From the NCBI GenBank assembly GCA_026162565.1, contig JAOEIQ010000006.1:1-64000 (forward strand): a DNA stretch of 64,000 bases, written 5' to 3'. Positions 7,571 through 15,641 of the stretch are shown here, piece after piece. Numbering within the stretch: position 1 is the stretch's first letter; every line of letters starts with the position of its first letter. Source of the stretch: Flavobacteriaceae bacterium NBU2973. Lineage in GTDB: Bacteria; Bacteroidota; Bacteroidia; Flavobacteriales; Flavobacteriaceae. The notes beneath the pieces were generated by a model. It searched no databases. It saw nothing but the letters and a program-made list of their open reading frames with translations, and had not been told where the DNA came from. A program made the position numbers and the translations under genes.

Positions 7571-8899
7571 ATGAGTCAAGATTATAATAATCCTGCTTTT
7601 AAAAAATTACTAGAAAAACTTCAAGAAGAGAGTTGGCAATTAGAATTACTAATTTCTGGATTTGCAATTTTTGGTCTTTTTACTGCTTACGAGCCCATAA
7701 ATTTTTATTTAGAGGAAGCTTTAGCTACTGGACAAGACTACAAGAGAGCCATATTTACAGTAGCAAAAATATCATGTATAATTTTGATTTTCAGCCTTTT
7801 AATACATGTTTTATTGCGTGGTCTATGGATTGGTGCTTTAGGCTTACGATATGTATCTGGCGATATTGATTATGAAGAATTAAACTATGGAGAAAAGTTT
7901 ACCAAATATCTAAAAAAACGTGTTGGCTCGTTTGATAAGTATATTGCAACATTAGAGAATTACTGTAGTATTATTTTTGCAGCCTCTTTTTTACTTATCT
8001 TCTATGTATTGGCTATGACTTTTATAATCATAACTATAGCATTTATAGCAAATAATATTCTTGATAACGATTTAGTACCTGATTGGTTAAAAATGACGCT
8101 TGGTATACCTATGATGCTGTTTATTGTTATTGGTATGTTTTTAACTTTTATTGATTTTATTACCCAAGGGTTTTTAAAGAAAAAGAAATGGCTTTCAAAA
8201 ATTTACTTTCCTTTTTATTGGGTTTTCAGTTTTATTACACTATCATTTTTATACAGACCATTAGTCTATAATTTTTTAGATAATAAATTTGGTAGACGTT
8301 TTAGTTTTATTTTATTCCCTCTTTTCATAGTAATATTTGTATCATTTTCTCTAGACTATAATTTTTCAAATTATTTTAGTTTAGATAATAACTCTAATGA
8401 TTATATCTCTAATAGAGAAAACTATGAAGATTTACTAGATGAAAAAACTGGATTTGTAGATAATGTTATCATACAATCTAAAGTTATTAAAGACAACTAT
8501 ATTAAGGTATTTTTGCCATATTCGCAACGAGTTGAAGATCGAGTATTCAGATTGAATAAAGGTCTAAAACCTGAAGATGATATAAGAGGAATAAAATCTG
8601 ATATCGTTGTTTTTGGAAATAATAATATTAATTTTTCCAAAAGAGATAGTTTGAGGAGAGAATATATTAAAACATTCAATACAATTTATTACGCCAAAAT
8701 AGATACTACTGTAGTTGAAACAAGTTTTATAGTAAGTCAAACTAAAAAAGGAACACTTGGTTTTGAAACCTACTTACCAACCAAAAATCTGTCAACTGGT
8801 AAACATATATTAGAATTTAAAAGAAAAGCCCTGAATAAAGAAAAAGATACTGTTTACTATAGTATTACTAAAATCCCTTTTTGGTATTATCCTGATTAA
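7571..8899 (+). CDS. Multi-pass membrane protein of unknown function
   Basis: The 442-residue protein has about six hydrophobic segments (roughly 27-46, 65-90, 130-165, 176-198, 213-232, 246-262). A hydrophilic C-terminal domain of about 175 residues (265-442) looks rich in beta strands and is probably outside the cytoplasm. I recognise no family. It starts 254 bases after the divergent haloperoxidase gene; that gap is AT-rich and shows no other gene. Its stop overlaps, by four bases, the stop of the convergent gene at 8896-9300. Confidence 0.75.
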   Translation: MSQDYNNPAFKKLLEKLQEESWQLELLISGFAIFGLFTAYEPINFYLEEALATGQDYKRAIFTVAKISCIILIFSLLIHVLLRGLWIGALGLRYVSGDIDYEELNYGEKFTKYLKKRVGSFDKYIATLENYCSIIFAASFLLIFYVLAMTFIIITIAFIANNILDNDLVPDWLKMTLGIPMMLFIVIGMFLTFIDFITQGFLKKKKWLSKIYFPFYWVFSFITLSFLYRPLVYNFLDNKFGRRFSFILFPLFIVIFVSFSLDYNFSNYFSLDNNSNDYISNRENYEDLLDEKTGFVDNVIIQSKVIKDNYIKVFLPYSQRVEDRVFRLNKGLKPEDDIRGIKSDIVVFGNNNINFSKRDSLRREYIKTFNTIYYAKIDTTVVETSFIVSQTKKGTLGFETYLPTKNLSTGKHILEFKRKALNKEKDTVYYSITKIPFWYYPD

Positions 8900-9300
8900 A
8901 ACTGTAAATCTTTTTTATTAATGTACTTAAAATAAGGTATCTGCAATAAAATAAAAATCGCTAAAAATACCACACTGTATAAATAGGTTTTAGGTATTTC
9001 TAAATTAGGGATTAAAGAATCTAATGAATAACTAAATCGCTCCTTTATACTAATTACATCTAACCATTCTGGTCTTGCTAATTCACTATTAAAATTAAAA
9101 ATAACAGCTAAAGCAATACAAGCAGCTACAAGTGTCCAAACCTTTTTTGATATCAAAGGTTTATAAGTAATAGTCTTTTCTTGCAATTGAGACATAATAT
9201 TAGCTGTAAAGTTAGCAGAAGGAGATTCTAGACTAGTCTCCTGCATAATCTTTTCTGATAACTTCTCAATTCGTTTTTCTGTAGTATTCATCTTTTTCAA
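8896..9300 (-). CDS. Small two-helix membrane protein, putative anti-sigma partner
   Basis: The 134-residue protein has a charged N-terminal part (1-48) and two hydrophobic segments (about 50-66 and 106-124). It follows the ECF sigma gene by 22 bases on the same strand, so the two are very likely one operon. That position and the cytoplasmic-domain-plus-membrane layout fit an anti-sigma factor. However, no zinc-binding HxxxCxxC motif or known anti-sigma domain is visible, so the role is inferred from context. A second possible start is Met4. Confidence 0.7.
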   Translation of the reverse strand: MKKMNTTEKRIEKLSEKIMQETSLESPSANFTANIMSQLQEKTITYKPLISKKVWTLVAACIALAVIFNFNSELARPEWLDVISIKERFSYSLDSLIPNLEIPKTYLYSVVFLAIFILLQIPYFKYINKKDLQF

Positions 9301-9322: not shown

Positions 9323-9913
9323 TTAATTAGTATGAGTTGTATAATAACTAATAATATCTGGTTGTAATTGCTGCTCCATAATTTTGGCTAACTTTTTTCT
9401 ACTTCTAAATAATTTTACTTTAACATTATTAGCTGTTAAGCCTATTATTTCGGCAATTTCTTCAAGTGACTGTTCTTCAAAATAAAATAAGGTTAATAAA
9501 AATGCATCATCACTTGGTAACAGCTCTAAACATTGTTTTATGGCTTTACTTTTTTCAGCTTTTTCTATAATATCTAAAACTGTTTCAACCGTTTTTAAAT
9601 GCCTTTCAGTAAACTCATCTATCGGAATAGATAAGTGTTCCTTTTTATATTTTTTAATTCTATCGAGACACGTATTGTAGGCGACTTTATAAATCCAAGT
9701 TGAAAATTTTGAATCACCCTTAAACTTACTCAATGACTTATAAACCTTAATAAACGTATCTTGAGATACCTCTTCTGCCTCTTCTCTATTTTTAACCATT
9801 CGCAATGCCAAAGTATATACCAAATCCTTATAGCGATCAACTAAAACCGAGTAGGAATTAGTATCACCATTTATAATTTTTTCTATTATATATTGGTCGT
9901 TGTTGGTGGTCAT
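9323..9913 (-). CDS. ECF RNA polymerase sigma factor (sigma-70 family)
   Basis: The 196-residue protein has sigma region 2 (about 22-88, with YKDLVYTLALRMVKN, AEEVSQDTFIKVYKSL and FSTWIYKVAYNTCLDRIKK) and region 4 (about 125-178, with SLEEIAEIIGLTANNVKVKLFRSRKKL). It lacks regions 1 and 3, as ECF sigmas do. It directs core polymerase to a stress or envelope regulon. The divergent intergenic region holds two mirrored GTAACC boxes at a fixed distance from CGTC/AGTC, which suggests that the factor activates itself and the DUF6249 gene opposite. Confidence 0.95.
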   Translation of the reverse strand: MTTNNDQYIIEKIINGDTNSYSVLVDRYKDLVYTLALRMVKNREEAEEVSQDTFIKVYKSLSKFKGDSKFSTWIYKVAYNTCLDRIKKYKKEHLSIPIDEFTERHLKTVETVLDIIEKAEKSKAIKQCLELLPSDDAFLLTLFYFEEQSLEEIAEIIGLTANNVKVKLFRSRKKLAKIMEQQLQPDIISYYTTHTN

Positions 9914-9924
9914 TTATAGGTAAG

Positions 9925-10009
9925 ACTATATAATGGTAATTTAGGTTACACAAATTGTCAAAAAAATATTTTTAAAAAAAGTGTAACCTCTTTTACAAAC
10001 TTGTCGTCA
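9925..10009. promoter_or_regulatory. Mirrored ECF-type promoters between sigma and DUF6249 genes
   Basis: GTGTAACCT at 9982-9990 (plus) is mirrored exactly by AGGTTACAC at 9944-9952. On the plus strand GTAACC is followed after 16 bases by CGTC (10006-10009). On the minus strand GTAACC is followed after 16 bases by AGTC (9928-9925). The layout matches ECF -35/-10 elements facing both ways. The minus-strand -10 lies only about 11 bases from the sigma ATG, implying a very short leader. Confidence 0.6.
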
Positions 10010-10055
10010 TAAGCTATGTAACAAATTAAAATTAATCAATTAAAAACAAACAATT

Positions 10056-10394
10056 ATGGAAGGAGAAATATTAATACCAATAGCATTTTTTGCAGCACTT
10101 TTCGGGATATTTTATTTATACATATCAAGTAGAAATCGAGAAAGGTTAGCTCTAATAGAAAAAGGTGCAGATGCCACTATTTTTAGTGGAAAACGAGGTT
10201 CTACATGGAAAGTTATTACACTTAACCTAGCCTTTTTACTAATGGGAATTGGAGTTGGTGTACTAATCGCTAATATTTTAGACACCTATTCAGGTCTTGA
10301 TGAGGATGCAATATATCCAGCACTAATTTTCTTAATGGCAGGTGTTGGCTTATATGTTGGTTTTACTCAAGCTAGAAAATTTGAAGACAGCTAG
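10056..10394 (+). CDS. DUF6249 family membrane protein
   Basis: The 112-residue protein has three hydrophobic segments: 5-25, about 50-70 and 85-103. Between the first two is RNRERLALIEKGADATIF, the arrangement typical of DUF6249 proteins. The function is unknown. Its position opposite the ECF sigma gene, with a matching ECF-like promoter, suggests that it belongs to that sigma factor's regulon. A terminator at 10423-10454 ends the transcript. Confidence 0.85.
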   Translation: MEGEILIPIAFFAALFGIFYLYISSRNRERLALIEKGADATIFSGKRGSTWKVITLNLAFLLMGIGVGVLIANILDTYSGLDEDAIYPALIFLMAGVGLYVGFTQARKFEDS

Positions 10395-14720: not shown

Positions 14721-15641
14721 ATGTTTAACAAAGAAGTAAAATCAATAATAGACTTAATTCAAGCCTTCCCTACTGAAGAATCATGTATTGAACATTTAGA
14801 AACACTACGTTGGAACGGTAATGTAGTAAGTCCTTTTGATGCAGAATCAAAAGTATATACTTGTAAAGGCAATAAGTACAAGTGTAAGAATACAGGAAAA
14901 TACTTCAATGTAAAGACCAATACTATATTTGACAACACTAAAATCGACTTATTAAAGTGGTTTATGGGTATTTGGCTTGTAACTTCACATAAAAAAGGCA
15001 TTTCATCAATTCAATTAGGTAAAGATTTAGGAATCACGCAAAAAAGCGCGTGGTTTATGTTGCAACGTATAAGAAACTGCTTTGGTTTAGATAACGACGA
15101 CCAGTTAAGCGGAGAAGTTGAGATTGACGAAACTTACGTTGGCGGCAAGGCTAAAAATCGTCGTAAGATGATTAGAAAAGATAAAAGTTTTGAAACAAAA
15201 GACCGTTTTAGAAAATCTACTGTACTAGGTATGATTGAGCGTGATGGAGAATTAAGAGCTATGCATGTAGGTAACTCTACAGAACATTCCTTATTACCTC
15301 CTATTGTAAATAACATAGAAAAAGGTTCTACACTATATACAGATGAATTAAGAGCTTATAATAAGCTAGAAAGGGTTTACGACCACCAAACAGTAAAACA
15401 TAACAAAGGCGAATACGTGAGAGGTCTAGTAACTACTAATACAATAGAGAGCTTTTGGGCTATATTAAAAAGAGGTATTTATGGTATTTACCATTTTACA
15501 AGTAGAAAGCATTTACATTTTTACGTTGACGAGTTTGTGTTTAGATACAATACTAGAAAAATTACAGAATCTCAAAGATTTAATCTAATTTTGAGTAATA
15601 CAGAAAATAGAATAACATATACAGAATTGATTTATGGCTAA
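14721..15641 (+). CDS. IS1595 family transposase (ISXO2-like)
   Basis: The 306-residue protein has an N-terminal region with a degenerate zinc-ribbon (cysteines near 48 and 55), a helix-turn-helix-like segment (about 94-118) and an ISXO2-type catalytic domain. That domain has EIDETYVGGK (D136), LYTDEL (D208) and N240-TIESF (N240/E243). The C-terminal YHFTSRKHLHFYVDEFVFRYN is typical of the family. All catalytic positions are intact. The stop overlaps the start of the P63C gene by eight bases, which suggests translational coupling. No clear IS1595 terminal repeats with target duplications are visible, so this may be an immobile or unusual element. Confidence 0.92.
   Translation: MFNKEVKSIIDLIQAFPTEESCIEHLETLRWNGNVVSPFDAESKVYTCKGNKYKCKNTGKYFNVKTNTIFDNTKIDLLKWFMGIWLVTSHKKGISSIQLGKDLGITQKSAWFMLQRIRNCFGLDNDDQLSGEVEIDETYVGGKAKNRRKMIRKDKSFETKDRFRKSTVLGMIERDGELRAMHVGNSTEHSLLPPIVNNIEKGSTLYTDELRAYNKLERVYDHQTVKHNKGEYVRGLVTTNTIESFWAILKRGIYGIYHFTSRKHLHFYVDEFVFRYNTRKITESQRFNLILSNTENRITYTELIYG

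Follow-up and report, generated by a model that had tools for sequence, protein, structure and literature searches.

Mirrored predicted ECF promoters link a sigma factor gene to its divergent DUF6249 neighbour across much of Bacteroidota

Introduction

What reads the two inverted copies of a short sequence that lie between an ECF sigma factor gene and a divergent DUF6249 gene in a flavobacterial genome, and which genes are reached through them? To our knowledge, Bacteroidota have very many ECF sigma factors, and the DNA code or a target has been established for only a few of them; autoregulated ECF sigma/anti-sigma operons as such are familiar from RpoE of Escherichia coli and SigW of Bacillus subtilis. 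The locus lies in the window (the whole stretch of 64,000 nucleotides that was analysed), which comes from a 3.05 Mb genome in 29 contigs; the relatives that we found for it are Flavobacteriaceae. The sequence-only reading of this DNA had described GTAACC in both orientations, each copy 16 bases from CGTC or AGTC and facing one of the two divergent genes, and had proposed that this is the DNA code of the sigma factor and that the DUF6249 gene is its direct target.

Results

The mirrored pair of predicted promoters and its genes

The intergenic gap measures 142 bp, with the sigma gene (minus strand) on one side and the DUF6249 gene (plus strand) on the other. Read directly from the letters, GTGTAACCT stands in it at 9981-9989 on the plus strand and again at 9951-9943 on the minus strand. 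The features of the locus are as follows:

8896..9291, minus strand: putative anti-sigma factor gene in the sigma operon, 131 aa with two hydrophobic segments, ATG at 9291
9323..9913, minus strand: ECF sigma factor gene, 196 aa, ATG at 9913, sigma-70 regions 2 and 4 only
9913..9914, minus strand: predicted 5' end of the sigma mRNA, on or beside the first base of the ATG, placed by the geometry of the -10
9924..9927, minus strand: predicted sigma promoter -10, AGTC (CGTC in nearly all orthologues)
9944..9949, minus strand: predicted sigma promoter -35, GTAACC, conserved in 80/80 loci
9983..9988, plus strand: predicted DUF6249 promoter -35, GTAACC, kept in 79/79 loci with a neighbouring DUF6249 gene
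10005..10008, plus strand: predicted DUF6249 promoter -10, CGTC, read from the window and conserved in orthologues
10018..10055, plus strand: predicted DUF6249 mRNA leader of about 38 nt, placed by the same -10 rule
10056..10394, plus strand: DUF6249 (PF19762) gene, small membrane protein of 112 aa, ATG at 10056

The earlier description of the mirrored elements is exact: AGTC is on the sigma side and CGTC on the DUF6249 side, with 16 bases between -35 and -10 on both. Taken by itself, GTAACC occurs in the window about as often as expected (17 matches versus 16.5), and the significance of the mirrored sites comes instead from their conservation with a fixed 16-bp spacer in 80/80 orthologous loci. 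A chance origin of the sites, which we considered, is ruled out by this conservation and by the comparison of the phylum survey with shuffled sequences (see below). As a separate observation, the bases after the DUF6249 -10 in the window (10005-10019) read ATAAGCTATGAA; they are near-unchanged in most loci outside Flavobacterium, a predicted conserved initially transcribed stretch downstream of this -10.

The sigma factor scores above cut-off against both Pfam Sigma70_r2 (PF04542, E = 1.4e-19) and Sigma70_r4_2 (PF08281, E = 1.6e-13), and reaches 118.6 bits with the sigma70-ECF model TIGR02937 (cut-off 42.9). It has the size and domain content of ECF (group 4) factors, namely regions 2 and 4 within about 170-220 aa, and a predicted promoter of its own with the AAC-type -35 and GTC-type -10 of that group, the site being kept in 80/80 loci. 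Among solved structures, SigH/RpoE-type and SigW chains come closest to it in sequence.

A homologue of the membrane protein that follows the sigma gene is found directly after it in 80/80 loci, and this position makes it a probable anti-sigma factor. It has no Pfam match of its own; a scan with its alignment gave weak, scattered matches only, and no known anti-sigma family was among the matches listed. Zinc-binding class I anti-sigma factors (ZAS) carry an HxxxCxxC zinc motif in a known anti-sigma domain, and conserved His or Cys residues are absent from the invariant or nearly invariant columns of our alignment of 32 of 81 candidate sequences. Its predicted structure is poor (pLDDT 64). Beyond the family, we saw a homologue in a single distant locus (L139) by a simple search that would miss diverged copies. 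Because of this one distant occurrence, subject to the same caveat, DUF6249 appears to be the more constant partner of the sigma factor.

The DUF6249 protein belongs to PF19762 (E = 9.9e-14, 51.6 bits against a curated cut-off of 33). Its alignment (33 of 80 sequences) shows a mean column identity of 70%, compared to 50% for the putative anti-sigma factor, and, taken with the model, reveals an invariant ER-x-ALIEKG-x-DA stretch following the first helix. Against solved structures there was no fold match at E<=0.001 (model pLDDT 72.7) and no match by sequence.

Conservation in Flavobacteriaceae

We assembled the best 80 of 134 confirmed relatives, with 62-72% identity over the sigma factor. In this set, GTAACC-N16-nGTC is found upstream of the sigma gene in 80/80 loci; DUF6249 adjoins it divergently in 79/80, and all 79 have the DUF6249-side site. 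The motif is thus present in the very intergenic regions from which it should have been missing had the sequence-only reading been wrong, and the proposal of DUF6249 as a direct target gains support from the site upstream of it in each of the 79 orthologous loci. TGTAACC and GTC show little or no variation, with a spacer whose sequence drifts but whose length is fixed: GTAACC-Nn-CGTC gives 158 matches at n=16 versus 19 at all other values of n from 8 to 24. The orthologues support the proposed code, which is a little broader than first put down, its -10 being nGTC. That the window's own sigma promoter has AGTC where the consensus is CGTC is a point against reading these sites as promoters of this sigma factor.

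An informative exception is Flavobacterium pectinovorum (L064), in whose genome DUF6249 is situated about 34 kb from the sigma gene, among other genes. Here GTAACC-N16-CGTC lies 37 nt upstream of the ATG of the moved DUF6249, and the sigma gene retains its own site; therefore, the site belongs to each gene rather than to the intergenic region.

The two genes also tend to occur together. DUF6249 is single-copy in 29/29 genomes searched, always beside a site, and in the window's family the sigma factor (E<=1e-40) was detected in 17/17 sampled genomes with DUF6249 and 0/10 without it. In one genome of a neighbouring family (G123), DUF6249 is present and the sigma factor absent at E<=1e-40; there, a more distant ECF relative adjoins DUF6249, with GTAACC-N15-TGTC 9 nt before the ECF start. 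Ten further sigma loci all have both sites, a gap of 9 or 10 nt to the sigma start and the DUF6249 signature, these loci being only partly new, as five or more of L265-L274 have the same sites as members of the 80-locus set. Likewise, several genomes of the phylum and genus samples recur in that set (for example, L036 = G273, L068 = G053, L044 = G250), and these samples are not fully independent of it. One Flavobacterium locus, L014, in which the promoters are further apart, has between them (2877-2906) an inverted repeat resembling CTTGGTCAAAG...CTTTGGCCAAG.

The pair across the phylum

We found DUF6249 in 71/247 of the Bacteroidota genomes sampled. Besides the window, we examined 73 places with this gene, 70 of them beside an ECF sigma gene (61 divergent and 9 tandem, with DUF6249 first); the other 3/73 have no sigma gene within the fetched stretch. 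The survey's 61 divergent pairs comprise 59 plus two whose DUF6249 was placed by Pfam coordinates; L117, L118, L141 and L142 were replaced by the longer L191, L192, L193 and L194, and L162 was dropped as a duplicate of the genome of L145. The strict pattern GTAACC-N15-17-NGTC matched 40/61 sigma sides and 43/61 DUF6249 sides (shuffled means 0.015 and 0.105; reversed pattern 0 and 0), and relaxed sites were recovered on 52/61 and 54/61 (shuffled means 0.3 and 1.35; reversed 1 and 2), with nothing on 9 sigma sides and 7 DUF6249 sides in the relaxed search of the 61 pairs. Thus, the back-to-back arrangement of sigma and DUF6249 genes with a shared predicted start signal is kept across much of Bacteroidota.

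The form of the signal varies. In several lineages, the -35 reads GAAACC or the first -10 base differs, and such changes tend to be shared by both promoters of a pair. Of 59 divergent pairs, 50 have a site on either side, and the two sites agree at -35 base 2 in 50/50 (shuffled 36.6) and at -10 base 1 in 38/50 (shuffled 14.6), with a shuffle that ignores relatedness. At the last -35 base, agreement in these 50 pairs is no better than chance (45 versus 45.2 shuffled). The layout varies too: in L121, L130 and L133, from another family, the start codons are 700-900 bp apart and each gene retains its site, L121 (the one locus examined in this respect) having an extra lipoprotein-like ORF between the sigma and DUF6249 genes. 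A tandem DUF6249-sigma locus may carry a single site, e.g., L123.

Size of the predicted regulon

The genome scan for GTAACC-N16-CGTC that the sequence-only reading had proposed returned two exact matches, of which one lies within an ORF. TGTAACC-N16-NGTC has 4 matches in the 3.05 Mb genome compared to 8 for the reversed-pattern control: two are the mirrored pair, and the other two (L196, by centre position, and one on C27) are inside ORFs. All 10 matches to GTAAC-N16-18-TCGTC in the same genome, except the DUF6249 site, are also inside ORFs. With no other intergenic site found by these last two scans, the regulon in this organism looks like the sigma operon and DUF6249 only. In 28 genomes of the 80-locus set, the exact motif has 125 matches (about two in each genome belonging to the pair) versus 248 for the reversed control, and because the exact counts fall below this control, the motif alone fails to find targets genome-wide. 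We also considered a large regulon and found no support for it, given that the remaining own-genome matches lie in ORFs and that, in the 28 relatives, the reversed control is commoner than the exact motif.

A hydrolase as an additional predicted target in Flavobacterium

Among the non-pair sites, we picked the subset of 20 with a TCGTC end. While 14/20 are inside ORFs, 3 of the remaining 6 precede genes of the beta-lactamase family (PF00144) by 31-33 nt; these genes are orthologues of one another, but their neighbourhoods differ in part. The hydrolase was present at E<=1e-75 in 20 genomes examined, 18 of them with the sigma factor; counting one-base variants, its predicted promoter occurs in 13/18 genomes with the sigma factor and 0/2 without it (G389, G415). 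GTAACC-N16-CGTC is exact before the hydrolase gene in 10 genomes (G273, G053, G021, G011, G234, G027, G250, G347, G353, G361) and is a one-base variant with the 16-bp spacer in G112, G332 and G162. G131 and G254 have a GTAACT version with a 15-bp spacer, and G010, G146 and G368 have no promoter before the hydrolase despite possessing the sigma factor. Across loci of Flavobacteriaceae, PF00144 serine hydrolase genes with the promoter or a one-base variant 31-42 nt upstream are seen in L220-L225, L227, L228, L230 and L258-L261. In G332 the hydrolase gene immediately follows the sigma and anti-sigma genes, in G112 it is near sigma, and in G131 and G146 hydrolase and sigma genes are 4-5 kb apart. 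The hydrolase is not a constant companion, being found in 10/150 sampled Flavobacterium genomes (E<=1e-75). These promoter patterns identify the beta-lactamase-family hydrolase as a predicted third regulon member in Flavobacterium, outside the window's organism.

In eight Flavobacterium-type genomes (L236-L240, L242, L244, L245), a longer PF00144 subfamily of about 490 aa has GAAACC, GAAACG or GAAACT followed by N15-CGTC 57-146 nt before the chosen start. This GAAAC-type promoter is probably the code of another ECF factor.

A predicted leaderless sigma mRNA

The nGTC is separated from the in-frame sigma ATG by 9 nt (61 loci), 10 nt (16) or 11 nt (3), accounting for 80/80 loci. E. coli RpoE requires C at position -10 (PMC8103513); if the C of GTC is likewise -10, then +1 would fall on or beside the A of AUG. 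Thus, the sigma mRNA is most likely leaderless, with its predicted start at or next to the AUG. By the same rule, the DUF6249 transcript is predicted to have an ordinary leader of roughly 40 nt, as CGTC is 47 nt from the DUF6249 ATG in the window, 32-46 nt in 78/79 loci and 135 in one. Distant pairs with a -35 of GTAACC or GTAACT mostly show 8-15 nt in the sigma gap; in several GAAACC pairs the gap is longer and the start codon less certain.

An alternative is that the promoters are real but the sigma mRNA is not leaderless, either because the start lies downstream of the annotated ATG or because another upstream promoter dominates. The rarity of leaderless mRNAs in the phylum favours it, with published figures of 5.5% leaderless mRNAs in F. 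psychrophilum (PMC9723704), leaders no longer than 10 nt in about 13% of F. johnsoniae mRNAs (PMC6847099) and 3.7% of leaders under 10 nt in B. thetaiotaomicron (PMC7366714). The annotated ATG nevertheless looks real because codon differences after it are dominated by third positions (substitution 0.149, 0.042 and 0.332 at positions 1, 2 and 3, in 72 of 81 sequences aligned), and because 73/81 have no other in-frame Met before residue 31, which is already past the start of sigma region 2. With the near-constant 9-11 nt distance from nGTC to ATG, these observations make a non-leaderless sigma mRNA rather unlikely.

Discussion

We interpret the mirrored elements as back-to-back promoters read by polymerase carrying the adjacent ECF sigma factor, a reading to which we assign a probability of about 0.88. 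In its favour, comparison of the loci shows sites of constant spacing that stay with each gene, genes that occur together and paired promoters that change in concert. An opposing view would have the inverted repeat AGGTTACAC...GTGTAACCT as an operator for a dimeric transcription factor rather than as two -35 elements, as the two inverted copies of GTGTAACCT in the window might suggest. However, the 16 bp between each copy and its own nGTC are constant, but the copies themselves are separated by widely varying lengths, from about 20-23 bp (L124, L135, L141) through 33 bp in the window and hundreds in Flavobacterium to tens of kb in L064. Because the inter-copy distance is not conserved, we reject such a palindrome, and the one-site tandem locus (L123) and the single copies before hydrolase genes add to making it extremely improbable. 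It could also be that the elements are ECF promoters served, in full or in part, by a different ECF sigma factor in the cell, the adjacent one not being the main reader. Flavobacterial genomes have several ECF factors, seven in F. psychrophilum according to PMC9723704, others of the same cell could share the code, and a related code, GAAAC[CG]-N15-CGTC, exists before the other hydrolase subfamily. Against this, the DUF6249-less genomes of the family are also without the sigma factor (0/10), the hydrolase promoter is absent in both genomes that lack it, and the paired promoters, one of them being the sigma factor's own, vary together. On balance, we regard such cross-talk as very unlikely.

Under the preferred reading of promoters served by the adjacent sigma factor, that factor very probably activates DUF6249 as well as its own operon. 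The recognition code would be TGTAACC(T), 16 bp and (T)nGTC, with C strongly preferred at n; one promoter would drive the sigma/anti-sigma operon, resulting in positive autoregulation, and the other DUF6249. In the scheme that we infer for the start sites, the anti-sigma action, the signal and the role of DUF6249, the two-helix membrane protein encoded downstream presumably sequesters the sigma factor and lets it go in response to an envelope signal, whereupon the freed factor would most likely transcribe its own operon and DUF6249. For DUF6249, the likeliest roles are those of main effector or of a feedback component within the signalling complex. A more tentative proposal, which we consider doubtful as a whole, is that DUF6249 might be an ancient membrane partner and co-regulator of a phylum-wide ECF system, with the sigma factor leaderless by design so as to be translated separately from its targets, and that the Flavobacterium module might have recruited the class-C-beta-lactamase-like hydrolase, with cell-wall or beta-lactam stress as the signal.

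The module resembles the RpoE and SigW operons in its two-region sigma factor, the membrane protein in the operon, the AAC-type -35, the 16-bp spacer and the GTC-type -10, and also in positive autoregulation, predicted here from promoter sequence. It differs from them in its very small predicted regulon and divergent DUF6249 partner, in a putative anti-sigma factor without zinc motif or known domain and in its predicted leaderless sigma mRNA. The SM6 promoters of F. psychrophilum (PMC9723704) are ECF-type with a CGT box in the -10 region, and their transcripts include the ECF sigma/anti-sigma pair THC0290_1774/1773. The likeness to our promoters is one of class (ECF-type with a CGT-containing -10), and, unlike the pair described here, SM6 covers many genes, type IX secretion included, and no -35 was seen in its description. 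ECF03, as characterized in PMC7406223, is a Bacteroidetes RpoE-like group, which the window's sigma factor may resemble; that group is said there to be without a conserved anti-sigma neighbour, whereas the window's sigma factor has a conserved putative one in its family.

We found no earlier description of the motif or of the sigma/DUF6249 pair in the open-licence literature, the ECF re-classification and EcfO papers being outside this scope; DUF6249 by name came up there in one paper only, apparently on plants. Autoregulated ECF promoters are of a known kind; within the open-licence literature searched, the code, the target and the phylum-wide pair appear to be new. The predicted code, autoregulation and conserved target can be read from sequence and are directly testable in the tractable F. 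johnsoniae, a strain of which is in our set (L059). DUF6249 thereby gains a regulatory context, and the predicted co-regulation of a beta-lactamase-family hydrolase hints at the signal.

Two other genes of the window may be mentioned. Convergent to the sigma operon, positions 7571-8899 code for a 442-aa protein without a Pfam match, a homologue of which occupies the same place in L079. Further away, at 14721-15641, there is an ORF of 306 aa that we take to resemble an IS1595-type transposase.
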